Below are positions 854-52,365 of a DNA stretch of 64,000 nucleotides, one piece after another. The stretch is taken from positions 1-64,000 of the forward strand of contig CAIPUE010000049.1 of assembly GCA_903868125.1 (NCBI GenBank), read 5' to 3'. Position numbers and translations under genes: made by a program. Source of the stretch: an uncultured bacterium. Lineage in GTDB: Bacteria > Cyanobacteriota > Vampirovibrionia > Gastranaerophilales > Gastranaerophilaceae. Below the pieces are notes generated by a model. The model was given only the letters and a program-made list of their open reading frames with translations, was not told the DNA's origin and did no database searches. Every line of letters starts with the position of its first letter. The stretch's first letter is position 1.

Positions 854-2806
854 ATGAATTATCCGGTTAACCAAAGAATAAATACATATCCGCAGTCATC
901 GACAGGTCTTAGCTTGTCTCAACTTCAAGAAATAAACGGAGATACGATTAAGAATGGAGTTGCGCAAAATGAACTTATTAAAAGTGTCAGCGAAGACAGC
1001 GACAAAACGCCTTGGCTTGCACCAGTGTTAAGCTTGCCTGTTTGGGCTAGTATGGTTTACGGAATGAATAAATTCAACACCGCTTGCGGTGGGCAATACG
1101 AGCAAAGTTTACCTTATAGAATGGTTAAATCTGTAGATAATTTTATTAAAAAATATGAATTTTTAGACAAAATGTCCAATAAGATTGTGAGTGGCTTCAA
1201 GTCTGCTACTACTGCTTTAGATAAAAGATTTGTTTCTAAGTCTAAAATTTTAACCGCATTTTTTAAGACCCCGTCTGAACCTAAATTGATTATGGTAAAA
1301 ATGATGTCAAAGGGAACAATTGCTGAAGTTTCATCAGAAGCTATTAAACAGTTGGAAGCATTTAAGGCAAAAGATCCTGCAAATCTTTTAAAAATGGGCA
1401 TAAGAGAAGCAGAACTCCAAGAATTGATTGCAAATCCTCATATAGACAAAAATATTCAAAAAATAATACAGCTCTGTGAAAAATTAAGTACGAATATTAT
1501 GCCTGCTTCAGATAAAGTTATTAAGCTTCCTTTTACAAAAGGGCAGAAGTATTTGTCTGATTTTATTCCCGGACTCGGAACAGCCTTAAAAAAGGACATT
1601 GTATTCTCTGAGTATGCTAATAAAATGAAAACTCTCCAGGGCGTACATGCTACTACTGTTCTTGGCAAATCCGTTCCAAGACTTATAATGAGAATTATAG
1701 AAAGCGTTACAAACGGTACTGCCGGCGGTAAATTTGCTATCTTCATGGCCGCATATTTTATTGCCGATTCAATAAAAGATGCAATACATGCTCCAAAAGA
1801 CGATAAGGTCAAAAAATTTGCAGAAAGTAATATTTCAGGTATGGCATTTTACTTAACTATGCCTTTTGTTATCGGACTGTTGCATAAATTTGGTGGACTA
1901 CAATATATAGGCGTTGATCCTGAAAAAGTTGAACATTATAGAACGGCACTTAATGAGTTCAATAATAAGGTAAATAGCGGTGCAATTAAAGTGAAAAGTA
2001 TCTATCTTGCAGAAGAAGCCAAAATCTTAGCTTTGAAAAAACAATTACTGAAACCTGCAACCGCAATTCAAAAATCCGATAAATTGGGAACACAAATCAT
2101 TAAAGCATTTAAAAACATAGTTTATAAACCATTAAGCCTGGGTGCAAATGTCTTAACAACCGGATTAGAATGCACGGTGGCGTTCAACCCGGAAGGAGTC
2201 AATAAGTCAAGCGGAGTGGGGGTTAAGGTGAAGCAGTTTTTCACAAACGGAAAATTTAAAGGTACAAAGGGTTTTCTCGGTGCACTAATAAGATTTGGTG
2301 TATTCGCAGCCTTTTTCGCTCCAACCTTAGGTAAGTTGGGTGCAAAGTTCTCTCACTTAATCTTCGGACGTCCAAGTAAATCAATACTTGATGAAGAACC
2401 TGAAGTAAAGGAAGGCGAACAACCAAAGCAGGCAGCCGTGGCAACTCCTACAACCTCCACTACGCCTATGAAAGCAACACCAACAGCGCCAATTCAACAA
2501 ACCCAAATCCAACAGCCTATAACAATGAAACCTATTAAAAAAAATAATGAAAATTTAATCAGTAATCAAACCACGCCGGCACAAAGAGAAAATTTGGTTG
2601 ATATGTATCAAGGCTCTCCTAACGCCTCAAAATCAATGATGGCGTCTCAAGAACCTGTTAGAACATACGTACCGTCTTCTGAAAGAGTAAACATTCAGCC
2701 AACTGCAGCAGATGAAGAAAAAAATAGTAAAATGAATACAGCATTGAGTAAAGCTGATAAAGCCGAATTGATGGCAAATAAATTCGTTGGAGGCAAGCAA
2801 CATTAA
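854..2806 (+). CDS. Unknown lineage-specific membrane-associated protein, 650 aa
   Basis: I do not recognise a family. The N-terminus (MNYPVNQRINTYPQSS) is the polar Asn/Gln/Ser-rich type seen on other unknown proteins of this window, with no signal peptide. Short hydrophobic or amphipathic stretches appear near residue 55 (VLSLPVWASMVYG), 290-310 (GGKFAIFMAAYFIADSI), 330-350 (MAFYLTMPFVIGLL) and 475-495 (GVFAAFFAPTLGKLG). Residues about 515-600 are a low-complexity Pro/Thr/Gln tail. Lysine-rich helices lie between the hydrophobic parts. The start has an AGGAAATGG ribosome site. It stands alone, convergent with cca. A peripheral or integral membrane structural role is only a guess. Confidence 0.8.
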   Translation: MNYPVNQRINTYPQSSTGLSLSQLQEINGDTIKNGVAQNELIKSVSEDSDKTPWLAPVLSLPVWASMVYGMNKFNTACGGQYEQSLPYRMVKSVDNFIKKYEFLDKMSNKIVSGFKSATTALDKRFVSKSKILTAFFKTPSEPKLIMVKMMSKGTIAEVSSEAIKQLEAFKAKDPANLLKMGIREAELQELIANPHIDKNIQKIIQLCEKLSTNIMPASDKVIKLPFTKGQKYLSDFIPGLGTALKKDIVFSEYANKMKTLQGVHATTVLGKSVPRLIMRIIESVTNGTAGGKFAIFMAAYFIADSIKDAIHAPKDDKVKKFAESNISGMAFYLTMPFVIGLLHKFGGLQYIGVDPEKVEHYRTALNEFNNKVNSGAIKVKSIYLAEEAKILALKKQLLKPATAIQKSDKLGTQIIKAFKNIVYKPLSLGANVLTTGLECTVAFNPEGVNKSSGVGVKVKQFFTNGKFKGTKGFLGALIRFGVFAAFFAPTLGKLGAKFSHLIFGRPSKSILDEEPEVKEGEQPKQAAVATPTTSTTPMKATPTAPIQQTQIQQPITMKPIKKNNENLISNQTTPAQRENLVDMYQGSPNASKSMMASQEPVRTYVPSSERVNIQPTAADEEKNSKMNTALSKADKAELMANKFVGGKQH

Positions 2807-2812
2807 TCGGTA

Positions 2813-4027
2813 TTAAGCTATCGGGTTTAGGTAATCTTTAATTATTTCAAGCTCCTGTGATTTTTTCATGTGCGGATTTTTAAGCTTTTCTTTTAGAACA
2901 AAATCCAATCCTTCGCCAAATAATTTTGACGGTTGAAACCCGAGTTCCAGCAAATCTTTACCGTTAATCGACAGTTTAACTTTTGCCAAATCTTCCAAAT
3001 AATGCAAAACCTGTTTTTCTTGACCGGAAATTGCCAAAATTAACAAAGTTTCAAGTTTTTGAGCCATAAAATTTTTATAAATCTCAAAATCTTCGTTCAA
3101 ATTACTCTTATAAAGCCTTTTTGCGTTCAAAATAATATCTTTTTCGTTTTTGGTAAGTTCTAATTTATCAGACAGTACATCGGATTCAAAGATTGCAATA
3201 AGCCCTAAATATACGAGCCAAGGGTGTTTGGGTTTGTATTTTGCGATAAGGTTTTCAATACCAATTTGCGGTATTTTAAACTCTTTTTGCGAAATTAATC
3301 TGTAAATTTTTTGATTAATAAATTTTTCAAAAATTTCTTGTGAGTACTCATTCAAAGTTTTTTTGAGTTCATTTTTAATCCTTTTGTTGCACATATCATA
3401 ATTAACATTTTTTAAATAAGTTTCTTGCAATTTCAGAGTGTTTTCTTCGATTTCAAACCCCAGTCTTGATGAATATTTTAGTGCGCGAATTATTCTTGTC
3501 GGGTCATCAACAAAGCTTTTAGCATGTAGAACTCTTATTTTTTTATTTTTTAAATCGTCTAAACCGTCTGCATAATCAATTAAATCGGCAAAGCTATCCT
3601 GATTTAGCGACATAGCAAGCGCATTGACCGTAAAATCACGGCGAAAAATGTCTTCTTTAAGGTTACAACCAATTCTATCGACATGTGGTAAATGTCCTTT
3701 TTTAGGATAAATTTCACTGCGAGTTGATGCAAAATCGATTTTTTTTCCGTTAATTTCTACTTTTATCGTGCCAAAATTTTTATGAATACTTAAAATTTTG
3801 ACTTTGGCTTCACTTTCAAGAATTCTCGCAAATTTAATCGCATCACCCTCAACCGTAATATCAATATCTAAGCTATTTTGGTTTAATAATAAATCTCTAA
3901 CCAATCCACCGATAAGATATAATTTATAACCGTTTTTCAAGGCGATTTTTGAGCAGAGTTCAAAAATCGCCTTGAAACCAGCGTCAAAATACGAATTATA
4001 ATTCTCATATAGATTAATGATGTTCAT
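2813..4027 (-). CDS. cca: CCA tRNA nucleotidyltransferase / poly(A) polymerase family, 404 aa
   Basis: This enzyme would add or repair the 3' CCA of tRNAs from CTP and ATP in the cytoplasm. The head domain has GGLVRD followed by the metal-binding DIDITVEG (DxD), then RRDFTVNALAM and the nucleotide-selecting DDPTRIIRALKYSSR, which are the hallmarks of class II enzymes. The rest is helical neck and body of normal length. I chose the internal ATG at 4025-4027, behind an AGGAACT site, rather than the upstream ATG, because the extra 25 residues are unlike the family. A TAAAAT box 7 nt before this ATG means the mRNA may also be nearly leaderless. An A-adding-only role cannot be excluded. Confidence 0.9.
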   Translation of the reverse strand: MNIINLYENYNSYFDAGFKAIFELCSKIALKNGYKLYLIGGLVRDLLLNQNSLDIDITVEGDAIKFARILESEAKVKILSIHKNFGTIKVEINGKKIDFASTRSEIYPKKGHLPHVDRIGCNLKEDIFRRDFTVNALAMSLNQDSFADLIDYADGLDDLKNKKIRVLHAKSFVDDPTRIIRALKYSSRLGFEIEENTLKLQETYLKNVNYDMCNKRIKNELKKTLNEYSQEIFEKFINQKIYRLISQKEFKIPQIGIENLIAKYKPKHPWLVYLGLIAIFESDVLSDKLELTKNEKDIILNAKRLYKSNLNEDFEIYKNFMAQKLETLLILAISGQEKQVLHYLEDLAKVKLSINGKDLLELGFQPSKLFGEGLDFVLKEKLKNPHMKKSQELEIIKDYLNPIA

Positions 4028-4161
4028 AGTTCCTATTTTAACGTAAAATAAAGGAAATAGTAAAGAACATTGAAAATTAAAAATCGGGCAAGCCCTATTC
4101 ACTCTTTCTTCTTTTGGAACGACTACAAATCGGATTAGACAAAAGAAAGGAGGTGATGAAA

Positions 4162-4227
4162 GTGGTAATCAATACAGAAGAACTACTAGTAATCTTAACG
4201 ATACTAATAGTTCTCTTACAACATTAG
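4162..4227 (+). CDS. Candidate 21-residue hydrophobic peptide (type I toxin-like or leader peptide)
   Basis: GTG at 4162 opens 21 codons ending TAG at 4225-4227. The start context AAAGGAGGTGAT (4147-4158) complements essentially the whole 16S rRNA 3' tail, which is far stronger than any other site in the window. The peptide begins MVINTEELL and is then almost entirely Leu, Ile and Val, so it could span a membrane once. A terminator hairpin follows at once, making a self-contained mini-gene. It resembles the short hydrophobic toxins of type I toxin-antitoxin loci. The run of branched-chain codons could alternatively mark an attenuation leader, but the next gene is a helicase and not a branched-chain biosynthesis gene. 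Confidence 0.45.
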   Translation: MVINTEELLVILTILIVLLQH

Positions 4228-4265
4228 GGCTTTTAAAGAGAGGAGTGCAATCCTCTTGCCCTTTT
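4226..4265 (+). terminator. Strong Rho-independent terminator after the 21-codon peptide
   Basis: The outer stem AGGGC/GCCCT and inner stem AGAGGA/TCCTCT close on a GTGCAA loop, followed by TTTTT at 4262-4266. It starts at the peptide stop codon, so it ends that transcript before the helicase gene or acts as an attenuator for it. Confidence 0.75.
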
Positions 4266-4290
4266 TAATTATAAACCATTTTATAATTAA
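4265..4290. promoter_or_regulatory. Perfect AT-rich inverted repeat, 11-bp arms
   Basis: TTAATTATAAA at 4265-4275 is perfectly inverted at 4280-4290 around a CCAT centre. It lies between the peptide terminator and the helicase start at 4329. It could be an operator or a hairpin adding to the terminator. No binding protein can be named. Confidence 0.4.
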
Positions 4291-4328
4291 ATCAAGAGGG
4301 TAAAATAAAAAAAATAAAGGATAAAAAT

Positions 4329-7300
4329 ATGTTACAAGAAGCTACACGCGCATTAAACTCCGCATTTAACAACAGTTTTATAAAAAAGCTTTGTCAATAT
4401 CTTCACGACTGTGTTCGTGAGGAGGTTAAAAGTGCTACTTTTAGGAACTTAAAACAAGACAAGGATAACAAGTGGATTTTCTTAAAAGAAGAAGAACAGT
4501 TGTTCCATAATTATGGCGAGTATTTACGACTTGAGGGTTCGGACAGCAAGCTTACGGAATTGATGATTCAGAGCGAATTAAGCCAAAAAGATAAATATTT
4601 GATTTACGGGTATTTGTTTTTAGTCGGAAAAAGCTCAAAGAACCGTAAATCAAACGAGTTTTTGACTCCACTTTTGTATATGCCTTGTAAACTTGAACGA
4701 AACGGGGTTAACATTAACTGTATGCTTCAGGATGAGTTTTTATCTCTAAATACCGGTGCTTTAACCGCTATGATGAAAAAAAGTGATGATGACGATGAGG
4801 TAGAACAATTATTGGAAGGGCTTTTGGATGTTGTACCGGAGTTGCCGATAACCAATGAAAAAATGGATATATTTTTAACCACTTTAAAATCAATTATCCC
4901 CGACATTGAAATCAAATTTGACCATTCCGATGATGTCGATGAGGATAATGTTACAAAGGATTTTTATAAAGAGGAAGAAAAAATTGACTTTGATAATTTG
5001 GATGAAATTACTGAAGAAACCGTAGTAAAAACATCCGTAAAATTGGAGAAAATCACTTTAACAAATCAGTGCTCAATAATTTTGACAAAACGTCCTTCAA
5101 TAACCGCAGGTGTTTTACATGAATTAATGCAGATTGCCGAAAAACCAAGCGGGGTTTATAGAGAAACTGCGCTGAATATAATTAACGAAGAATATTTACA
5201 AACCAAAGGTAAGATAATTGATAATCCAGCCAAGGGATTCAAGGATTTAAAGGATTTTGCTGCAATTACTCCGCTTTCGCTGAGTGATTCGCAGGAAAAT
5301 GTTATAAAAAGCCTCGAAAATAACACTTTTGTAGCTGTTTATGGACCTCCGGGAACCGGAAAATCACAGACGATTGTTAATTTGGTTTCACACCTTATAG
5401 CAAGCGGCAAGACTGTTTTAGTCGCATCTCGTATGGACAAAGCGGTGGATGTGGTTGCTGATAGGTTAAACGAGCTCGGCGCACCGTTTTTAGCACTTCG
5501 TGCCGGTAGGTTAAATTACCAAAAACAGTTAAGTTTTCAGCTTCAAGACTTACTTTCAAACAAAATTGATTTAGACTCAGAGTACGAAAATGCCATTTTC
5601 GCCGACATTAAAGATATGAAAGAATTATTAAACACCATAAAAGATTTGGAAAATAAATCGGAAAATACAATCAAACTTGAACGGGAGTGGCAAGAAATAT
5701 CTGTTCAAAAAACCGAACAGGAAAAAACTTTAGGTGCAATGCAATTTATACAAAATATTTTGAAAAAATCAGAAATTGATCAAATTGTTGATTTAATAAA
5801 AATAATCGAAAAAAATCTTGAAAAAACAGGGGTTTTCGCTTCGATTTCAAATTATTCAAGCAAAAATAAACTAAAAAAAATCTTGAAATTAAACGAATTT
5901 GAAGCAAGTTATGAAAAGTTAGCAAGATTACATGCAGAACTTGAGGTTTCCAAGCTTACTTGCACTATGCGCCTGATTGAAGCTAATATACAAAAACTAG
6001 GTAACCTACATGTTATGTCAGAACAAATCCGTATGCTAAAGAGAAAACAACGCAATTTGGCGATTGATATCCTAAAAGGGAAACGCAGAGAGGCTTTAAA
6101 AGGATTACTGCGTGATCAGGTTAAGCGCCAAAGATTAATCGTTCATACAAAATCACTCGTTGAACGCAAAAAAAATCTTCAAAACCGCCTGCTTGAATGT
6201 GAAGATTTTAGACCCTTAATGGAGGCATTTCCTTGTTGGTGCGTTACAACTTACGCAATTTCTGGTTCTTTGCCTATGAAACCGGGACTTTTTGATGTTG
6301 CAATTATTGATGAAGCTTCTCAATGCGACATCGCAAGCTGTTTCCCGATACTTTATCGTGCAAAACGCGCAGTGGTTGTTGGTGATGACAAACAGTTACC
6401 TCACCTGTCATTTCTTGAAAAAGCAAAAGAGCAATCTTTTTTAAGCCAATATTCAATTCCGGATAAATATCAGTTAATGTGGCGTTTTAGAACAAATTCA
6501 ATGTTTGACTTGGCAAATTATTATTCAATGAATCCTGTTTTACTTGATGAACATTTCAGAAGCCTGCCGCCTGTCATAAATTTTTCTAACCGAGAATTTT
6601 ATGGAGACAGGATTAGAATTATGCGCAGAAATGTAAATGAAATTAAAGCTTTGGAGCTTATTCATGTGCCTGAGGGTAAGGTTGATTTTGACGCAACAAG
6701 AAATTTACCTGAAGTTGAAGCTGTTGTGGCTAAATTACAGGAAATTATACTTGAAGATGAACGTAAAAACCCTGAAAATCCTGTTTCTATCGGAATAATC
6801 TCTCCTTTTAGGGCGCAGGTTGAACAGTTGAAAACCTCCGTTGCAATGGTTTTGTCTGAACATATGATAAAAAAACATAAAATTGAAATTGGTACGGCTC
6901 ATACTTTTCAAGGCGATGAACGAGATATCATACTTATGTCTTGGGCATTTGCGAGTAATAGTTTTGTCCAAAGTCTAACATTTTTGCAAAAACCGAATTT
7001 ATTCAATGTTGCGATAACCCGCGCGAGATATAAAATGATTAATTTTACATCCAAAACCCCAAGAGAATTAGCAGAGGGACTGTTTAGAAGTTATTTGAAT
7101 TATGTTCAAGAATATGAAATTAGACAAAAAGCCATTGAAAATAAAGAAATTGAGGAAAATTTCTACAAAAATAGCTTTGAAAAGGAAATAGCACAAACAA
7201 TCCGTGACTTAGGGCGTGAAGTTCAGGCAGGTGTAGAAATCGCAGGATTTAGCGTTGATTTACTTGTCGATGATAAAATTGCAATCGAATGTGACGGCGT

Positions 7301-8100: not shown

Positions 8101-8647
8101 AAAAGCCATATCTTGGCTTAAAGAAAATTTAGATGAAGAGCGATTATTACATTCACTCGGATGCGCTCAATGTTGCGCAGAATTGGCACATAAATTTAAA
8201 CTTGATGAAGAAAAAGCTTACACAGCAGGACTTTTGCATGACTGTGCAAAGTGTTTCAGTCAAGAAAAAACAATGGAGATTGTCCAAAAGCTTAATCTTG
8301 AAGAAACAGAACTCGTTAACTTCAAGGTGCTTCATGCCCCTGTAAGCGCTTATATTGCACAGTATGAATTGGGAATTAAAGATAAGGAAATTTTATCCTC
8401 AATTCGCCTACATACATTGGGAAATCTCAATATGACTGATTTTGAGAAAATAATATTTTTAGCGGATAAAATAGAACCCAATACAAGAGATTCCGAGTTC
8501 AGGGATAAAATGTTAATGTTTTTAGAAGAAGAAAATGGTATGAACAAAGCACTTTTAACCTGTTACAAAGAAACCATCAGAAGCTTAGTAAAAAAAGGCT
8601 TGAAAATTTGTGCTGTAACCGTTGATATTTATAACAGTATGCTCTAA
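8078..8647 (+). CDS. yqeK: YqeK-type HD-domain hydrolase, 189 aa
   Basis: A single HD domain occupies the whole protein. LLHDCAK near residue 52 is the metal-binding HD. An upstream H in LLHSLGC and the downstream HTLGNLNMTDFEK and FLADKIEP blocks match the YqeK family, whose members cleave diadenosine tetraphosphate symmetrically to ADP. The gene starts inside nadD, as in many bacteria. The ribosome-silencing factor gene rsfS that often follows is absent. Instead the 3' end overlaps the convergent cheA stop by 4 bp. The role in Ap4A control is inferred from the family. Confidence 0.9.
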   Translation: MDYTEKNKKAISWLKENLDEERLLHSLGCAQCCAELAHKFKLDEEKAYTAGLLHDCAKCFSQEKTMEIVQKLNLEETELVNFKVLHAPVSAYIAQYELGIKDKEILSSIRLHTLGNLNMTDFEKIIFLADKIEPNTRDSEFRDKMLMFLEEENGMNKALLTCYKETIRSLVKKGLKICAVTVDIYNSML

Positions 8648-11600
8648 TTTCCTTCGTGCAAAATTTCTTCAATTATTTTTTGAAAACTTTCTTGTTTAAA
8701 TTCACTTTTAACAATATATTTTTGAGCACCTAAAACTCTTGCACGTTTTTTGTTTTCTTCGCTGACTAGCGAGCTTACCATAATAACAGGGATATCCGCA
8801 TACATTTCATCAGTTTTTAATTTTTCAAGGAATTCAAATCCATCCATTTCGGGCATTTCTACATCACTTATGATTAGGTCAAATTTTATGTTTTTCATTT
8901 TATCAAAGGCGTCTGGGGGATTTTCAGCAGTTTCCACATTATAGCCTGCTTTGGTTAAAATATTTTTTTCCATAGTTCTTGTTGTTATTGAATCATCCAC
9001 CAATAATATTTTATAATCTTTGTTGCTTGATACTTTCGTTATACTTGATGAATTGGAGGGTAATTTTGTAAGTTTTGTTATATTTATGATATCCGTAATA
9101 TTAAGAATTAAGCAGATTTCGCCGGACACCAATGCGGTAATTCCTGAAATATTTTTCAATTTATAAAAAGGAGCGGAAAGTTTTTTGTGTAAAATTTCTT
9201 GATCGCCTATCAATTTATCCACGGAAAGAGCCATTATTTTGTCGTCTGATTCTATAATTAGTATTGTTTCTCTATCTTTATTGTAATTAGACTTGGGTAA
9301 ATTTAAAATATCCGTCAAATTGTATAATGGGATTGTTTTTTCTCCAAAAATAATAGATTTAGTGCCGGTACTTGAAATTATTTCTTCTTTTTTCTTTCTT
9401 AAAACAGTTTTTATCACTTCCATCGGAACCGCGAATGTTTGGTCAGAAGATTTAACCAGAAACGCTTTGAGAGTAGACATTGTTGTGGGGAGCTCTATTT
9501 GCACACAGCAGCCCTTATTAATTTCGGAAAATACTTTGACTCTACCGTTAAGTTGAGAAATTTTTGTTTGTACAATATCCAAGCCGATTCCCCGTCCCGA
9601 TAGATTTGTTATCTCAGCCACAGTAGTAAATCCCGGCGAAAAAATAATATTTATTATTTGTTCATCGGTCATTAAATTTATTTCTTCTTGAGTTAAAAAT
9701 CCTTCCTGTAGTGCTTTTTCTTTTATTTTTGCCAGATTAATTCCACGACCGTCATCTTTTATTTCAATTATTACTTTATGATTAGATTGTCTGGCAGAAA
9801 GAATTATCTTTCCTTCAGGTTTTTTACCTAATTCTATTCGTTCTTTGGGAGTTTCTATCCCATGGTCAATGGCATTTCTTATAATATGAATTAATGGGGT
9901 TTTTATTTCTTCTATAATTTTTTTGTCTGTACTTGTTTCACTTCCTACAATTTCAAGTTCAATTTTTTTATTTTTTTCTTGTGCAATATCTCGAACCATT
10001 CGCCCAAAAAGATGGAAAATCGTTGCTAAGGGCAAAACACGGATATTCTGAACCATATTTTCTACGCTGTCAACTATTACGTTCATTTTTGCATCATCTT
10101 CCTGAATCATCCTATGCAGGCTTGTAATATTTAAAACGGTTTCTTGAACTTTTTTATTATTATCAGTAAATAAGGTCAAAATTTGTTTTACGAAAAAGGA
10201 AATCGGACTGTCGCTTATTCCTGATTGAAAATACTTTTTATCATAATATTTTAAATAATTGAATGTTTTTGTCAAATTTCTTTGCCATTCTTCAAGTTCT
10301 TTATTTATTAAGCTCAACTCATGTAAATGTTTTTTGGTTTTTATTTTTGTAGTGGTTAATTCACTGACCTGATTTATCAATACATCAAGCTTTGAAGAAT
10401 CCACTCTTAAGGTTTTTATTGTTCCTGTGTTAAAGATTTCTGAAAAATCGGATATTTTTTCGCCTTTAGCTCCTGCCCCTTTTTTTGTGATAAAGCTTCC
10501 TTCTTCAATTTTTTCTTTATTAAATGTTAATACTTGCTGTACAATTTCCAATCGTTGCAAAATAAGCACTTTGTCGGCACTTTCACTTTTATTTTTGCTT
10601 ATATCATCACAATATTCAATACTTTGTTTTAAGACAGAGACTGTTTCTTGCTCAAATTGGGTTTCATTTTCACAGGCAAAATCAATGATTTCAATCATTT
10701 TTTGCAAAATACTCTTAATATTACTGTTCGAACAAATATTCTCATACTCCAACAGTAAACTTTTAATCGGAACTATAGAACTGCCGCTATTCAACAATTC
10801 CCAAATTTTATTGTTAATAATAGCCAAATCATCATTAATTGTAGCATCTTTATTTTGAGAAATATCTGAAGTTTGTTCTTCCTGAATTATTTCAACATTA
10901 TGCTCGGATTTGTTTCTGAACAGTGTTGAATTAGAAGATAATTTTTCAAACGCAACTGAATAATAATCTACAAGCTCTATATTATGCAACTCACATATAG
11001 CAATAAATTTATTAATTATACTATCTAAAACTTTATGGATTTCGGCTATTTCATCATTTGTTAAAATGTTAGAAGCTTGACTGGTAAAATCTAATTTAAG
11101 ACAGATATCTTCAAAACTTTTTTTTATGTCAAAAAGACCGATTTTTTCAAAAATAGTATGCAATTCTCTGACAACCAAAAGTAAGTTTGTAATTAAATTT
11201 TCGCTTTTTCCTGTTTCAATTTGCATCAATATTAAAAGACTTTCCGGAACAAGGGTATTAATTTCCCCAATATTTTTTACAAATAATTCTAAGTCAAAAT
11301 CCGATTGTTGATTATCAGAAAGAGTTTCTTCTATGTTTTCGTTTAGTTCTTCTAAAATAGCAATATGTTTAGGAATATTTTCATTGTATATTTCTTGACC
11401 TTTTTGTATAGACTTTTGGATTATTTCAGCTAAAAAATCAACTGTCTTATATAAAATATTAACGACATTGGAGGTTAATGAGATTTTATTTTCTTTAGCT
11501 AATCCAAGTATATCTTCCATTTTATGAGCAATAGTTTGAACGCTGTTAAATCCAACCATTCTTGATGCACCTTTGAGCGTATGCGCGTCTCTAAAAAGCA

Positions 11601-11733
11601 TAAGGATAGCGTCCTTGTTTTTTGAATTTTTTTCCAATTCTAAAAGGCTATTGTTTAATTTTGAAATAATTTCTTCTGATTCTGCCTGAAATATCTTAAA
11701 TATTTCAGCAGTTACTTCTTTTGAATAATCCAT
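8644..11733 (-). CDS. cheA: Hybrid chemosensory histidine kinase CheA-REC, 1029 aa
   Basis: The domain order is clear. An Hpt domain sits at the N-terminus with the phospho-acceptor His51 in AHTLKGAS. A second, degenerate Hpt-like helical stretch lies around 140-265. The dimerisation helices follow near 440. A histidine-kinase ATPase lies at about 600-750, with RNAIDHG, DDGRGI and GRGIGLDIV. A CheW-like coupling domain follows. A receiver at 908-1029 has VDDS and phospho-acceptor Asp957 in IISDVEMP. The attached receiver recalls FrzE- and PilL/ChpA-like kinases, where it serves as phosphate sink or output. It lies 19 bp downstream of the MCP gene on the same strand, so the two are probably co-transcribed. 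Confidence 0.95.
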   Translation of the reverse strand: MDYSKEVTAEIFKIFQAESEEIISKLNNSLLELEKNSKNKDAILMLFRDAHTLKGASRMVGFNSVQTIAHKMEDILGLAKENKISLTSNVVNILYKTVDFLAEIIQKSIQKGQEIYNENIPKHIAILEELNENIEETLSDNQQSDFDLELFVKNIGEINTLVPESLLILMQIETGKSENLITNLLLVVRELHTIFEKIGLFDIKKSFEDICLKLDFTSQASNILTNDEIAEIHKVLDSIINKFIAICELHNIELVDYYSVAFEKLSSNSTLFRNKSEHNVEIIQEEQTSDISQNKDATINDDLAIINNKIWELLNSGSSIVPIKSLLLEYENICSNSNIKSILQKMIEIIDFACENETQFEQETVSVLKQSIEYCDDISKNKSESADKVLILQRLEIVQQVLTFNKEKIEEGSFITKKGAGAKGEKISDFSEIFNTGTIKTLRVDSSKLDVLINQVSELTTTKIKTKKHLHELSLINKELEEWQRNLTKTFNYLKYYDKKYFQSGISDSPISFFVKQILTLFTDNNKKVQETVLNITSLHRMIQEDDAKMNVIVDSVENMVQNIRVLPLATIFHLFGRMVRDIAQEKNKKIELEIVGSETSTDKKIIEEIKTPLIHIIRNAIDHGIETPKERIELGKKPEGKIILSARQSNHKVIIEIKDDGRGINLAKIKEKALQEGFLTQEEINLMTDEQIINIIFSPGFTTVAEITNLSGRGIGLDIVQTKISQLNGRVKVFSEINKGCCVQIELPTTMSTLKAFLVKSSDQTFAVPMEVIKTVLRKKKEEIISSTGTKSIIFGEKTIPLYNLTDILNLPKSNYNKDRETILIIESDDKIMALSVDKLIGDQEILHKKLSAPFYKLKNISGITALVSGEICLILNITDIINITKLTKLPSNSSSITKVSSNKDYKILLVDDSITTRTMEKNILTKAGYNVETAENPPDAFDKMKNIKFDLIISDVEMPEMDGFEFLEKLKTDEMYADIPVIMVSSLVSEENKKRARVLGAQKYIVKSEFKQESFQKIIEEILHEGN

Positions 11734-11752
11734 TTACAATCCAATCAATTAA

Positions 11753-12790
11753 TTAATTAATATTTTCTTTAAAAGAGTCGGACAGTTCGTTTAAAGAATG
11801 AATATTCTTAATTTTCTCTTCTAAAAGCTTCAAAGATGCTTTTAGCCCTTCATCCAGTGTGTAGAAAATAGAACTTACACTGTTTGACGAATTTGTTTGA
11901 CTTTCCGAATCGATAAAAATTTCTTCCGCAGATAATTTCACTTCTCCAATAAGGTTAATTAACGATTCAATATTTATATTAATATTATCGGCGAATTTCA
12001 CTCCCAGTTCAATTTCCTTAGAACCTTCTTCTGTTGCCATGACTGTTGAATTTGTAGCTTGTTGAATATTTTTAATTAAAGATGTAATTTTTGTTGTAGC
12101 CTGTTTTGATTCATCAGCCAACTTCCTTATTTCACCTGCAACAACCGAAAACCCTTTTCCATTTTCTCCCGCACGGGCAGCTTCAACTGCGGCGTTGAGA
12201 GCAAGCATGTTTGTTTGTTCTGCAATATCCTCAATCAATCCGATAGTTTCGCCTATTTGTTGGGTATGCTCTGACAATTCAAGGATTAATTCTGCAATAA
12301 CTTGTATTCTTTGTCTTAACATAATCATTTTTTCAATATTTGCTTTCACCGATTCTTGCTCTTTTTGAGAATAGTCTAATGATAAATTAGCCTTAGTTGA
12401 AACATTTTGAGCATTTTGCTTTGTTTTTTTCGAAGCCTCCTTTAAGGCTTCGACATTTGTTATTGCACTTTCTACCAATCGCACGTAACTTTCAATGCCA
12501 TCTTTTTGCTTATTTGAAAGATCTGTTATCGTTTGAGTTGTTTTCGACGTATCAAAAATCTGTGTTCCCACACTTTTTACCATATATTTTTCAACCCATT
12601 GTCTGGTTAATTCATACTGAATTGCATAAATAATTAATAAGGAGGAAATCAATATTGCGTCATATTTACCCAATTTAAGTAAAAAATCCACAAGCAAAAT
12701 TATTATAATTATGACGATTAAAAATAATCTATCTATAAACGATTTTATCCTCATTTTGTTTCCCAAGCTGATTTCAGAATCATGTTTCAT
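11753..12790 (-). CDS. Methyl-accepting chemotaxis-type receptor with minimal sensor region, 345 aa
   Basis: The protein has two adjacent N-terminal membrane helices (about 22-40, rich in Ile, and 45-61) with almost no loop between them, so there is no periplasmic sensing domain. The rest is a long signalling coiled coil whose hairpin tip reads [20 protein letters not shown] and is followed by [16 protein letters not shown], the part that binds CheA and CheW. A good AAAAGGAG site lies 6 nt before the ATG. It shares a divergent promoter region with the REC-GGDEF gene and is followed by cheA. No cheR or cheB is present, so methylation control is doubtful. Signals may come from the membrane or from partner proteins. 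Confidence 0.92.
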
Positions 12791-12899
12791 AAGAGCTCCT
12801 TTTATTTTCTATTATAGATGTAAAAATCCTTTTAATAATCATAGATTTGTAGTATAATTATTGTATTACAAAAACGAAAACAAAAGAGGATTTAGATAG
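12791..12899. promoter_or_regulatory. Divergent promoter region between MCP and REC-GGDEF genes
   Basis: On the minus strand a TATAAT box lies at 12811-12816, ahead of the MCP. On the plus strand a TATAAT box lies at 12853-12858, ahead of the diguanylate cyclase gene. Neither has a convincing -35. The back-to-back arrangement would let one regulator control both halves of the chemosensory cluster. Confidence 0.5.
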
Positions 12900-14384
12900 A
12901 TGTCTCCAAAAATTTTATTAATAGATGATAGCGCCACTCAATTAGAAATATTAAAACTCAATTTTTCTAAATTGGGTTATGATGTTATAACGGCAAAAGA
13001 CGGAAGTGAAGGTTATCGGATGGTTTTTGAGGCAGCTCCTGATTTAATTTTATCCGATATTGTAATGCCAAATCTTAATGGATATCAACTTTGCCGACTC
13101 TTGAAAAATAATAAAATTACTCAAAAAATTCCGATAATTTTATTAACTGTTCTTGATAAAAAAATAGATAAATTTTGGGGAAGTAAGTCCGGTGCGGATA
13201 AATTCATATCCAAAACAACGAATTATGAAGAAATTGAAGAAATTGTCAAGAAAAATATAGAAAAAAATCCTGTTTCTGATGAATACAAAAAGCATTTATT
13301 AAATAATTCCGTCAGTAATGAAACAATCCAAAATCAAATTAATAGCGTACTTGATGAATTATTGATGAATTCAACCTTTTTAAATGAATTTAGAGATTTA
13401 GGCGAATTTTTATCACATGAAAAAGTTTTAATAGAAAAAACTTTTAAGTTAATCGGTTCTTTCGTTGAATACAATGTTGCAGGACTATTTCTTAATACTC
13501 CTGATAAAAATGAAAAGAATATTTTACATATAGATATAGGCAAAAATTCTGTTTCAAGTTTTGTTATGGAAAAGATTAAAAGAGATTTCTTCGCAAAAAT
13601 GCCCGGAGTATCAACTTTTACCATTAGAGATTTTGGTCATGATGTAGTTAGAGAGCCGGTTAACAAGGATGAAACCGTTTTAAATTTCGAAGAATTTAAA
13701 ACGGCTCATATCTTACCGCTTATCTCAAATGGGGATTTAGTGGGCGGAGTTTGTTTTTATAATACGGAAAAGTGTAATTATACTGAGTTTAAATTTTACA
13801 AAACGATGATTAGCGAACTTTTATTGCTTTTAAAAATGAGATTTTTATACTCCCAGACCGAATATTTATCTGTAACTGATGGACTTATGGGGCTTTATAA
13901 CAGAAGACATTTTGAATATAATATTGAGCGAGAATTCTTAAGAACAAAACGTTATCCTTCTGATTTAAGTTTGGCTATGATTGATATAGACCATTTTAAA
14001 AATGTAAATGATACTTATGGGCACCAGTTTGGGGATTATGTCCTTAAAGATATTTCCGATATTATATTAGAATCATTCAGGAAAACTGACATGGTATATA
14101 GATACGGGGGCGAAGAATTAGCAATAATTTTAACCGAAACTTCATTAGAGAGTGCCCTTATCCCATTAGAAAGACTTAAAGATAAAATTGCTAAACACCA
14201 ATTTGCCTATAATGGCAAAACAACAAATGTTACCATCAGCATTGGCTTAAGTTCTAATTTTATGGATATTCAAACTCAGGAAGAATTGGTAGAATCTGCT
14301 GATAAAGCTCTTTACAGAGCAAAACAAAGTGGTAGGAATAAAGTGGTAGCATACTCTTATGAAAAATTTAGCAACATTACCTAA
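12900..14384 (+). CDS. Response regulator diguanylate cyclase (REC-linker-GGDEF), 494 aa
   Basis: This is a PleD-like output protein that would make cyclic di-GMP from two GTP when phosphorylated. The receiver spans residues 1-120, with IDDS at 8-11 and phospho-acceptor Asp53 in ILSDIVMP. A GAF-like linker domain fills about 160-320. The GGDEF domain covers about 325-490, with active-site GGEEL at 403-407. The inhibitory I-site RKTD (394-397) lies exactly five residues upstream, so product inhibition should work. An AGAGGATT site precedes the ATG. The 3' end overlaps the tandem CheW gene by 26 bp, so the two are coupled. CheA is the likely phosphate donor (inferred from context). Confidence 0.95.
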   Translation: MSPKILLIDDSATQLEILKLNFSKLGYDVITAKDGSEGYRMVFEAAPDLILSDIVMPNLNGYQLCRLLKNNKITQKIPIILLTVLDKKIDKFWGSKSGADKFISKTTNYEEIEEIVKKNIEKNPVSDEYKKHLLNNSVSNETIQNQINSVLDELLMNSTFLNEFRDLGEFLSHEKVLIEKTFKLIGSFVEYNVAGLFLNTPDKNEKNILHIDIGKNSVSSFVMEKIKRDFFAKMPGVSTFTIRDFGHDVVREPVNKDETVLNFEEFKTAHILPLISNGDLVGGVCFYNTEKCNYTEFKFYKTMISELLLLLKMRFLYSQTEYLSVTDGLMGLYNRRHFEYNIEREFLRTKRYPSDLSLAMIDIDHFKNVNDTYGHQFGDYVLKDISDIILESFRKTDMVYRYGGEELAIILTETSLESALIPLERLKDKIAKHQFAYNGKTTNVTISIGLSSNFMDIQTQEELVESADKALYRAKQSGRNKVVAYSYEKFSNIT

Positions 14385-15396
14385 TAATCATGTTTTAGAC
14401 AAGGATGAAAATTTATACTTGTATTTTCAGCTGGGAGATAACAAGTATGCGCTAAATATATGGCAAATGGTAGAAATAATAAAACTCCCTTTGCTTGATT
14501 ATCCGCAAAAACTCGCGAATAATTTTGTCGGGCTTTTAAATTACAATAATTTTACGATAAATATTTTGGATTTAAGATTTTATCTTAATATAAAAGTATC
14601 TCCTTATTCCGTCTCCAACCAATTACTTATAGTAAAGACTGATGAAACCATATTTGGGTTAATAATTGATAAAGTTGAGGATATAATTTATTTAGAGCAA
14701 TCAAAAATAGAATACTTGCCATGCGCAGGGGATACAAAAATTATTGAATTTATGTATAAAAAAGAGAATGAAACTATTTCCATAATTAATCTATGTGCCG
14801 TTGAAGAAGTTATTAAGCAAGGTGTTCCATTAAGTGATATTGATATCCCGTCACTTTTCCCCAAGGATGATGATTCTCGATATAAATTAATGCAAAGAAA
14901 TCATGCTCTATTTGAAAAATCTAATGCAAGCTTGGGGACAAATATTTTCGCTCAGGATAGATTTATCTCCTTTTCACTCAACGAAAATATTTATTGTATA
15001 AATGTAGAATATGTAAAAGAAGTTTTGAAGAATTTTTTAATAACTCCAATTCCTTGTAACTTGGATTATGTTGCTGGCGTTATAGCCTTAAGAGGTGATT
15101 TTATCACCGTAGTTGACATAAAAACCCTGTTGGGAATAAATGAAAAGGCTTCAAGTATTGATTCAATGGGGAGCAAAAACAGCCTGATTATTATTGAAGT
15201 GCCTGATTATCAAATTGGATTTTTGGTGGATGAACTTTTTAGTATAATTAATATTGCTGAAGATTTAATCAAAAAAAATTCTAACAATCAAAACAAATAT
15301 ACATTAAGCGAAGTTATTTTAGAGGATAAGTTTTATACAATTTTAGACATAAAAAACATTTTATCTGATGAGAAATTTTTTATCGAAGATAATTGA
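14359..15396 (+). CDS. Tandem CheW-domain coupling protein, 345 aa
   Basis: Two CheW-like SH3-type domains follow each other. The first is about 15-140 (YFQLGDNKYALNIWQMVEI, LLNYNNFTINILDLR). The second is about 195-340 (FISFSLNENIYCINVEYVKEV, GVIALRGDFITVVDIKTLLG). Such proteins bridge receptor tips and CheA. Two copies in one chain could link neighbouring array units. The start lies inside the diguanylate cyclase gene. The N-terminal domain is the less conserved of the two. It completes a receptor-kinase-coupler-output set with its neighbours. Confidence 0.9.
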   Translation: MKNLATLPNNHVLDKDENLYLYFQLGDNKYALNIWQMVEIIKLPLLDYPQKLANNFVGLLNYNNFTINILDLRFYLNIKVSPYSVSNQLLIVKTDETIFGLIIDKVEDIIYLEQSKIEYLPCAGDTKIIEFMYKKENETISIINLCAVEEVIKQGVPLSDIDIPSLFPKDDDSRYKLMQRNHALFEKSNASLGTNIFAQDRFISFSLNENIYCINVEYVKEVLKNFLITPIPCNLDYVAGVIALRGDFITVVDIKTLLGINEKASSIDSMGSKNSLIIIEVPDYQIGFLVDELFSIINIAEDLIKKNSNNQNKYTLSEVILEDKFYTILDIKNILSDEKFFIEDN

Positions 15397-15552
15397 TAAA
15401 AGGGGAAAGAGAAAAATAGTACTGTTGGACAGGTATGAACTTGAACAAAGTGAATTTACAATACGTAACATTATTTTCTATTTTAGGCAATTTTTGCTGA
15501 AAATATTTTTTTATATATAAATAGTGTGTTATTTAATGTGGAAGTGGTAAAG

Positions 15553-16437
15553 ATGGGATTAGAATCGGTTTCTAATAGACCGTCATCTGGTGTGCGGTTA
15601 GATTCTTTGTTTAATTCAATACAAGGAAGTGCTTATAGTCAGTCGAGTTATGCTAAGTTAGCTTACATTCCGGATTCTGTGGCTATAAATGCAGGATTCC
15701 AAAAGTATTTAAGCGAAAAATCAATTATAGAAATGATTAAGGTAAGTTCTGAAATCAAGCGGATTTTGAATGTTGCAAAAATTCCGCTTAAAATTAACAT
15801 GAAAATGTTAAATGATTTAGTTCAGAATCACCTTACCCATACAAAAAAGATAGCGGTGGGAATAGTGGGAAATCTTCCGCAAGGTTTCAAATCAGAAGTC
15901 AATCTTCAATCATTACAAAAAGCTGCCGTTTTGCATGATATCGGAAAAGTACTAATACCCGAAAGAATACTGAATAAAAAGGGTGCATTAAACGCTGAGG
16001 AATTGGCGATAGTGCAAAAACATCCAACGCTGAGTTATGAAATGCTCAAAAATACAGATTTGGACGAAACGACTTTAAATTTAGTTAAAAATCATCACCA
16101 AAATGCGCAAAAAACGGGATATCCCAGCGTAACCGGAAACTTTATCGCAGATATTAATTTACAAATCCTCTGTGCATCTGACGTATATTCAGCCCTGAGA
16201 GAAAAGCGCTCGTATAAGCCTGAGTTAAATAAAAATCAAGCATTGGCGATAATTCATCAGGATATGATGAGTGGTAAACTGCATCCTTGCGTATTCAAGG
16301 CACTTGTCGATTATGCAAACAAGAGCGAAAGTGAGAACATGGCTAAAACTCAAGACGCAACGGTAAATCCTTTACTTCAAACCTGTAAACGGCTTCTGTT
16401 CCTAAATCCTCAAAGGCAACCAATTCCTTCCCGATGA
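15553..16437 (+). CDS. HD-GYP domain protein, putative cyclic di-GMP phosphodiesterase, 294 aa
   Basis: The C-terminal half carries HDIGK followed by PERILNKKGALN, then KHPTLSYEML and HHQNAQKTGYP, which match the HD-GYP pattern including GYP itself. These enzymes degrade cyclic di-GMP. The N-terminal 100 residues are lineage-specific and polar. I prefer the ATG at 15553 behind GGAAGTGG over the upstream GTG at 15526. It follows the REC-GGDEF/CheW pair on the same strand, so synthesis and breakdown of the messenger would be encoded together. Its last 95 bp overlap the 3' end of the convergent fumarase gene, and its own tail (LLFLNPQRQPIPSR) may be a read-through extension. Confidence 0.85.
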   Translation: MGLESVSNRPSSGVRLDSLFNSIQGSAYSQSSYAKLAYIPDSVAINAGFQKYLSEKSIIEMIKVSSEIKRILNVAKIPLKINMKMLNDLVQNHLTHTKKIAVGIVGNLPQGFKSEVNLQSLQKAAVLHDIGKVLIPERILNKKGALNAEELAIVQKHPTLSYEMLKNTDLDETTLNLVKNHHQNAQKTGYPSVTGNFIADINLQILCASDVYSALREKRSYKPELNKNQALAIIHQDMMSGKLHPCVFKALVDYANKSESENMAKTQDATVNPLLQTCKRLLFLNPQRQPIPSR

Positions 16438-44591: not shown

Positions 44592-44969
44592 ATGTCATTT
44601 ATTAGTCCAATCAATGTAAATTCTCAAGGAATAAATGCTGCTTCAGGATTTGGGGCAAAACCTCAATCAAAAGAAGAAGCAACAGAAAAAACTGAAGAAT
44701 CCAAGGTAAAGAACACACCGACTTCAGTATCTGCCGATGAAGTTTTTAATTACATGGCACAATCCGCAATTTCAATAACTCCGGCAACTCCATCTATTGA
44801 CACATCAAAATACGTAGATAAAGAAAGTGCGGCAAGAATTGCAGGATTTATGTCTGCCTTTGAAGATAAAGTGGTTGAAGGTCTGGCTGCATTTAATAAA
44901 GAATTTGCTGGAGTAGATATTTCTGATTCTGCAAAGTTGGCACTAGTGCTTGCCGGTATCAATGCGTAA
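44592..44969 (+). CDS. Unknown small protein with GFGAKP N-terminal motif, 125 aa
   Basis: I do not recognise a family. The first 20 residues (MSFISPINVNSQGINAASGF) are Asn/Ser-rich and lead into GFGAKPQ, the tail type shared with the proteins at 18302 and 52015. A charged Glu/Lys stretch follows, then one compact helical domain (about 45-125). AGGAG lies 8 nt before the ATG. A very strong hairpin ends the gene, so it is probably well expressed. The function is unknown. Confidence 0.75.
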   Translation: MSFISPINVNSQGINAASGFGAKPQSKEEATEKTEESKVKNTPTSVSADEVFNYMAQSAISITPATPSIDTSKYVDKESAARIAGFMSAFEDKVVEGLAAFNKEFAGVDISDSAKLALVLAGINA

Positions 44970-52014: not shown

Positions 52015-52365
52015 ATGTCATTATCTGTAAATCAAACTAATTATTCTAATTATAAACCGGCTTTTGGGGCGGGTAAAAATCCTATTAGGAAAGGTAATTT
52101 CTGTAGTTTTGTAAGACAACAATCTCTCCATTTTGGTATACAAGCCGGAAGTTTTGCCCTTTTAAATGCATCCAAGCCACATTCGCAAGACTTAGAAACA
52201 TTTTTAGCTATAAAACTTGGGTGTGATATTGGTGAAGCATTCCACACCATATTGTCATTAAAAATGCCGTTTGATATTAACCACCAATGTTCAAATCCCT
52301 TTGCTTATCTCGCAGACGGTACAAGAGCCGTAACAAAATTCATATCATCAAAAATGCAAAAATAG
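52015..52365 (+). CDS. Unknown small protein with YKPAFGAGK N-terminal motif, 116 aa
   Basis: I do not recognise a family. MSLSVNQTNYSNYKPAFGAGK is the polar PAF-type tail shared by several unknown proteins of this window. The rest is one small helical domain with a basic segment (IRKGNFCSFVRQQS) and no membrane helix. A weak AAGAG precedes the ATG. The gene stands alone between nagA and the convergent gcvPB. Confidence 0.7.
   Translation: MSLSVNQTNYSNYKPAFGAGKNPIRKGNFCSFVRQQSLHFGIQAGSFALLNASKPHSQDLETFLAIKLGCDIGEAFHTILSLKMPFDINHQCSNPFAYLADGTRAVTKFISSKMQK

Follow-up and report, generated by a model that had tools for sequence, protein, structure and literature searches.

We analysed a 64,000-nucleotide stretch of DNA (the window), corresponding to contig C49 of a 1.89-Mb genome (assembly 99.66% complete) from Candidatus Gastranaerophilales, an order of gut relatives that forms a sister lineage of the cyanobacteria. 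Between positions 8644 and 16437, a cheA-mcp pair diverges from a pair of genes encoding a REC-GGDEF protein and a tandem CheW, with an HD-GYP gene last. On the minus strand lie cheA (1029 aa, 8644–11733) and mcp (345 aa, 11753–12790), spaced by 19 bp. On the plus strand lie the gene of the REC-GGDEF diguanylate cyclase (494 aa, 12900–14384), the tandem cheW gene (14359–15396), which overlaps the cyclase gene by 26 bp, and the gene of an HD-GYP-type protein (15526–16437; Pfam HD_5/HD), a lineage-specific accessory. The 109 bp between mcp and the cyclase gene (12791–12899) presumably hold the divergent promoters; a consensus promoter scan of this gap found no more sites than in shuffled sequences or by chance. 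Pfam matches above cut-offs were obtained for all five proteins, which confirms the set of receptor, CheA-REC, tandem CheW, REC-GGDEF and HD-type protein listed in the first-pass annotation, and NCBIfam contained no equivalog above cut-off for any of them. Compared with a sister species, all five genes are under purifying selection (dN/dS 0.09–0.18; 0.11 for the cyclase gene).

CheA comprises an Hpt domain (residues 10–92), a dimerisation domain (H-kinase_dim, 440–495, barely above its Pfam cut-off), HATPase (612–750), CheW (757–884) and a C-terminal REC (909–1017). No P2 docking domain was found with Pfam, and the long linker from 110 to 430 has no domain assignment. A residue check confirmed H51 in Hpt and D957 in REC; these two residues and K1009 are invariant in an alignment of 22 genus representatives. 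The receptor of the window has two hydrophobic stretches about six residues apart, no HAMP domain was matched in it by Pfam, and it can be aligned over its length with 21 relatives. With two adjacent transmembrane segments and no periplasmic domain, it indeed lacks an external sensing domain, as first proposed. The predicted hairpin arms of about 140 residues each are consistent with the 40H length.

In the cyclase we confirmed D53, K105, the RKTD motif at 394–397, which leaves the I-site intact as had been claimed, and GGEEL at 403–407. Judged from these residues, both the A-site and the I-site expected of an active diguanylate cyclase appear to be in place, with L instead of F as the fifth residue. 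Among 16 cyclases, K105 does not vary and D53 shows at least 90% conservation; genus g31 has glutamate in place of the receiver aspartate. A GAF label for the middle domain had been a guess and was dropped, as there is no Pfam match. A Foldseek search gave PleD and WspR as top matches, driven by REC and GGDEF. In the HD-GYP protein the signature HHExxDGxGYP reads HHQNAQKTGYP and is degraded; in a comparison with 4mcw the HD, KH, HH and D positions are aligned, and several metal ligands look kept. The true start of this gene is likely to be codon 10, at about 15553. Among the loci compared, it lies next to the array in the window's genus alone (G000, G290), and we do not count the HD-GYP protein as a core part of the system.

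Family searches over the whole host genome, which was also examined by stretches, returned no match for CheR and none for CheB, one MCP signalling domain, that of the cluster's receptor, and three CheW domains, all inside the cluster. Because of this single MCP domain, the confinement of all three CheW domains to the cluster and the lack of CheR and CheB, a second che operon is unlikely. The absence of cheR and cheB from the cluster thus extends to the entire genome; their presence elsewhere, which would have spoken against the first-pass reading, was looked for and not seen. REC matched 22 times genome-wide, and two of these receivers are stand-alone proteins, neither of which adjoins che genes: one of 121 aa (L089 7831–8196), flanked by a hybrid histidine kinase and a GspE-like ATPase, and one of 137 aa (L096 8323–8736), below the Pfam cut-off. 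Hence the first-pass annotation was right that no CheY is linked to the che genes, but two stand-alone receivers are encoded elsewhere. The row of hybrid histidine kinase, 121-aa REC and a protein with MshEN and T2SSE domains (L089:6370–10263) may connect two-component signalling with pili or secretion by a route of its own.

Across the order, CheA was found in 209 of 383 genomes, FliG above cut-off in 162 and PilT in 366. In a cross-table whose Fisher tests ignore phylogeny and are descriptive, and in which absence from a draft genome may be an assembly gap, 153 genomes had both CheA and FliG, 56 had CheA without FliG, and nine had FliG without CheA, eight of them from g29. The largest group without FliG is g21. 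PilT accompanied CheA in 208 genomes and was missing in one; 158 PilT genomes had no CheA. Of the 17 genomes in which PilT was not matched, 16, flagellated g29 among them, had no CheA either.

The locus itself was compared in 26 genus representatives, 22 of which were usable, since the cyclase slot is cut by a contig end in four (L067, L075, L076, L086). A REC-GGDEF gene occupies the divergent slot, together with tandem CheW, in 16 of the 22. GGEE and RxxD are both kept in 14 of these 16 cyclases and were lost together in two (g18, g19). No cyclase lies beside the array in the other six (g14, g24, g25, g26, g33 and f6; the g33 contig ends within the cheW gene, which begins directly beside mcp), and g14, g24 and g33 are flagellated genera that keep the array without an adjoining cyclase. 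The comparison across the order, which had been suggested as a check, thus found REC-GGDEF with the array in most genera and the phospho-acceptor, GGEE and I-site conserved. The cheA-mcp/dgc-cheWW unit is old; since the cyclase is missing or degenerate in some genera, the array may do without cyclase output there or rely on another response regulator in trans.

In a CheA tree of 82 rows, midpoint-rooted and with row labels assigned from gene order and not from annotation, the 14 rows from Gastranaerophilales come together in a single clade (100/100), which joins the Coleofasciculus, Spirulina and Magnetominusculus rows (100/98). Wsp-labelled rows form their own clade (100/99) apart from it, and the ChpA-labelled rows, only two in number, another; CheA of the window is not grouped with ChpA/PilL. 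Window-type CheA is sister to two cyanobacterial CheA and not to WspE.

The host genome is flagellated and encodes FliG, FliM, FliN, MotA, MotB, flagellin and FlhA; its motA-motB-fliL-fliM-fliN operon ends without cheB-cheR. The N-termini of FliM and FliY dock CheY, and CheC dephosphorylates CheY. FliM was found in all 48 genomes searched. Its N-terminal motif LSQx(D/E)IDxLL is present in 13 of 13 genomes read from families f2–f6 (G002, G003, G004, G005, G006, G010, G012, G015, G022, G024, G028, G030 and G032). It is absent from all 32 Gastranaerophilaceae, of 16 genera, in which the start of FliM could be read (FliM of G248 begins at a contig edge and was left out) and from both f7 genomes, G007 and G013. 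Where the pattern caught other strings, FliM was read by eye, which gave ILSQDEIDNLL in G006 (L242) and no LSQ motif in L261. The gene after fliM encodes FliY with a CheC part in 11 of 11 readable f2–f6 loci (L222 ends at a contig edge) and FliN only in 18 of 18 readable Gastranaerophilaceae loci, a comparison that left out L248–L265 (g16, g18, g19, g26, g27, g29, f7 and others). FliN of the window's genome shares 74% identity with the FliN portion of an outer-family FliY. The window's genome accordingly has neither the CheY-docking motif of FliM nor FliY, one or the other of which marks the F class.

For CheR, about 170 bits or more was taken as chemotaxis grade, a threshold set after the gap in scores was seen; weaker matches (about 1e-4 to 1e-31), which occur order-wide and even in genera without CheA, were disregarded. 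CheR of chemotaxis grade is present in f2–f4 and in four Gastranaerophilaceae (G376, G382, G281 and G138), where CheA and CheB accompany it in a separate operon. In f2–f4, CheB and CheR are encoded downstream of fliM and fliY in L194, L197, L201, L203 and L205 (named by Pfam in L194). In L194, the window-type mcp and cheA come after fliM-fliY-cheB-cheR, and in G026 (f3) the mcp-cheA pair follows these genes directly; because of this adjacency in G026, a motor role existed or still exists in relatives. A second operon with CheA, CheW, MCP, CheR and CheB was seen in L190, L191, L192 and L193 (Gastranaerophilaceae), whose FliM is without the CheY motif. Second operons with CheY occur in Gastranaerophilaceae g36, one g20 and g26 (g37 was partly read), and the FliM motif is absent there too, so its absence alone is no proof of lost CheY control.

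Two further observations concern export. Extra FlhA-family, FliP/FliQ/FliR/FlhB-like and SpoA-like genes lie outside the main flagellar operon (L100:2109–4205, L216, L215:403–4349 and L095:1–480) and are possibly a second export apparatus; the Pfam check covered the two FHIPEP genes (the other FlhA is L097:10834–12939) and one FlhB-family fragment. A loose pattern, a polar N-terminus that closes with a brief F(G/K)(A/G) motif, recurs in several proteins, in the window at 44592–44969 and 52015–52365 and in L095 at 1626–4469 and 6633–6995, and may be an export signal.

The array was compared with known systems. Wsp of Pseudomonas (WspA–F, WspR) has WspC (CheR), WspF (CheB) and separate CheW proteins (PMC8552884). 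Both have an MCP-CheW-CheA-REC phosphorelay, here read from the genes, to a REC-GGDEF protein with GGEE and I-site, and a CheA without an assigned P2. They differ in that here CheR and CheB are absent, CheA falls into another clade with good support, the cyclase carries an additional middle domain, the CheW domains are joined in tandem, the gene order is divergent, and the receptor has no outer domain, whereas a periplasmic domain marks the Wsp receptor. The likeness to Wsp proposed earlier therefore holds as a functional analogy, in the link from CheA-REC to REC-GGDEF, but not as kinship of CheA with WspE. Chemosensory cluster 2 of Halomonas titanicae is likewise non-Wsp and combines CheA-REC and a cyclase with a 40H-class receptor (PMC5907407), a class that the arm length would also fit here; unlike the window's array, it has CheR-TPR, CheB, CheY and an Hpt-REC-REC-GGDEF cyclase (PMC5907407). 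The cyanobacterial Tax/Pix/Pil systems pair MCP-CheA-CheW with type IV pilus motility, and motility in cyanobacteria is also affected by c-di-GMP (PMC5812497); these systems share these components with the array, whose nearest CheA in the tree include those of Coleofasciculus and Spirulina, but their output is PATAN-CheY and CheY regulators, with no cyclase in the operon (PMC5812497). The F-type che operon of some Gastranaerophilales (L190, L192, L193) belongs to the same order and shares MCP-CheA-CheW, but is a separate second system with a CheY-like REC, CheX, CheA without REC, CheR and CheB. In the window's genome, none of the F-class features CheR, CheB or a CheY linked to che genes was found.

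Binding of c-di-GMP is a property of PilZ and MshEN domains. Directly beside flhA, the host genome encodes a PilZ protein of 196 aa in which RxxxR and DxSxxG occur. It also encodes PilB- and PilT-like ATPases, and PilB carries an MshEN domain whose first motif starts KLG and not RLG. The PilZ protein and PilB are plausible c-di-GMP targets.

We consider it fairly probable that the locus encodes a single, methylation-free array with the divergently encoded REC-GGDEF cyclase as its main output, and most likely that this array sets a messenger level and not motor direction. The receptor, without an outer domain, would sense a membrane or cytoplasmic cue and form a core signalling unit with tandem CheW and CheA, in which CheA, as in its family, should autophosphorylate at H51. 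D53 of the cyclase would receive the phosphate, as would D957 in CheA's own receiver, which is probably a sink whose decay stands in for a CheZ or CheC phosphatase. The conserved motifs suggest that the phosphorylated cyclase makes c-di-GMP and that the I-site limits it; in the window's genus the HD-GYP protein might perhaps remove c-di-GMP nearby. The messenger could then act on the PilZ protein, possibly a YcgR-like motor brake, and on MshEN PilB, with motility or surface behaviour as the presumed end effect. Without CheR and CheB, the readout of the array should reflect how strong the stimulus is at a given moment, not how it changes over time.

That the array still steers the motor, with CheA phosphate passing to a stand-alone REC encoded elsewhere, such as the 121-aa protein, that would dock on FliN or at a different site of the switch, and with the cyclase as a side branch, we regard as unlikely. 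The FliG, FliM, FliN, MotA, MotB and flagellin of the genome speak for such steering, as do the mcp-cheA pair adjoining fliM-fliY-cheB-cheR in G026, the flagellated genera g14, g24 and g33 with an array and no cyclase, and the strong association of CheA with FliG (153 of 162 FliG genomes, not corrected for phylogeny), which also counts against cyclase output. However, the FliM motif and the FliY CheC part are absent in the window's family where read, the 121-aa REC sits between a hybrid kinase and a GspE-like gene, CheA occurs in many genomes without FliG, and flagellated g29 has no CheA. The earlier claim that the output is a second messenger and not motor bias is thus backed by the altered switch and by CheA in 56 FliG-less genomes, but it had overlooked the flagella, and the cyclase is missing in six of 22 genera and degenerate in two.

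Control of type IV pilus motility as in cyanobacterial Pix/Pil, with c-di-GMP or receivers acting on PilB/PilT, is a possibility to be taken seriously, though clearly short of even, and it overlaps with cyclase output if c-di-GMP is the carrier. It would fit the MshEN domain of PilB, the cyanobacterial CheA among the closest outside the order, and the presence of PilT in 208 of 209 CheA genomes, with 16 of 17 PilT-less genomes, g29 included, also lacking CheA. Yet PilT is near-universal, so that this association has little power, and two genera account for most of it. CheA is missing from 158 genomes with PilT, the loci read showed no pilus gene next to the array, and no PATAN-type regulator was noticed in the stretches read. 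Finally, the REC-GGDEF protein could be mainly a phosphate-receiving binding partner with secondary catalysis, as the gene still stands in its slot in g18 and g19 although both GGDEF and I-site are gone; the retention of both sites in 14 of 16 genera and the low dN/dS of the window pair make this improbable. As to how an array with cyclase output arose, we tentatively suggest, at somewhat less than an even chance, that a once methylation-adapting flagellar array was rewired in Gastranaerophilaceae: CheY docking on FliM, the CheC part of FliY and cheB-cheR would have been lost from the motor, whereas the array would have held on to its cyclase, turned into a c-di-GMP sensor without adaptation and later persisted in flagella-less lineages.

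Our literature search, incomplete in coverage, found no description of such an array. Flagellar, chemotaxis and pilus genes have been reported in a termite-gut member (PMC5877343), and Di Rienzi et al. described gut types of Melainabacteria without chemotaxis genes (PMC3787301), a claim that is qualified by CheA in 209 of 383 genomes. The order holds both the earlier and the later state of the flagellar switch, with the FliM motif and FliY or with neither, so that a change of output could be followed within it. If our reading is true, the locus would represent a non-Wsp route from a chemosensory array to c-di-GMP, without CheR and CheB, in the sister lineage of the cyanobacteria.
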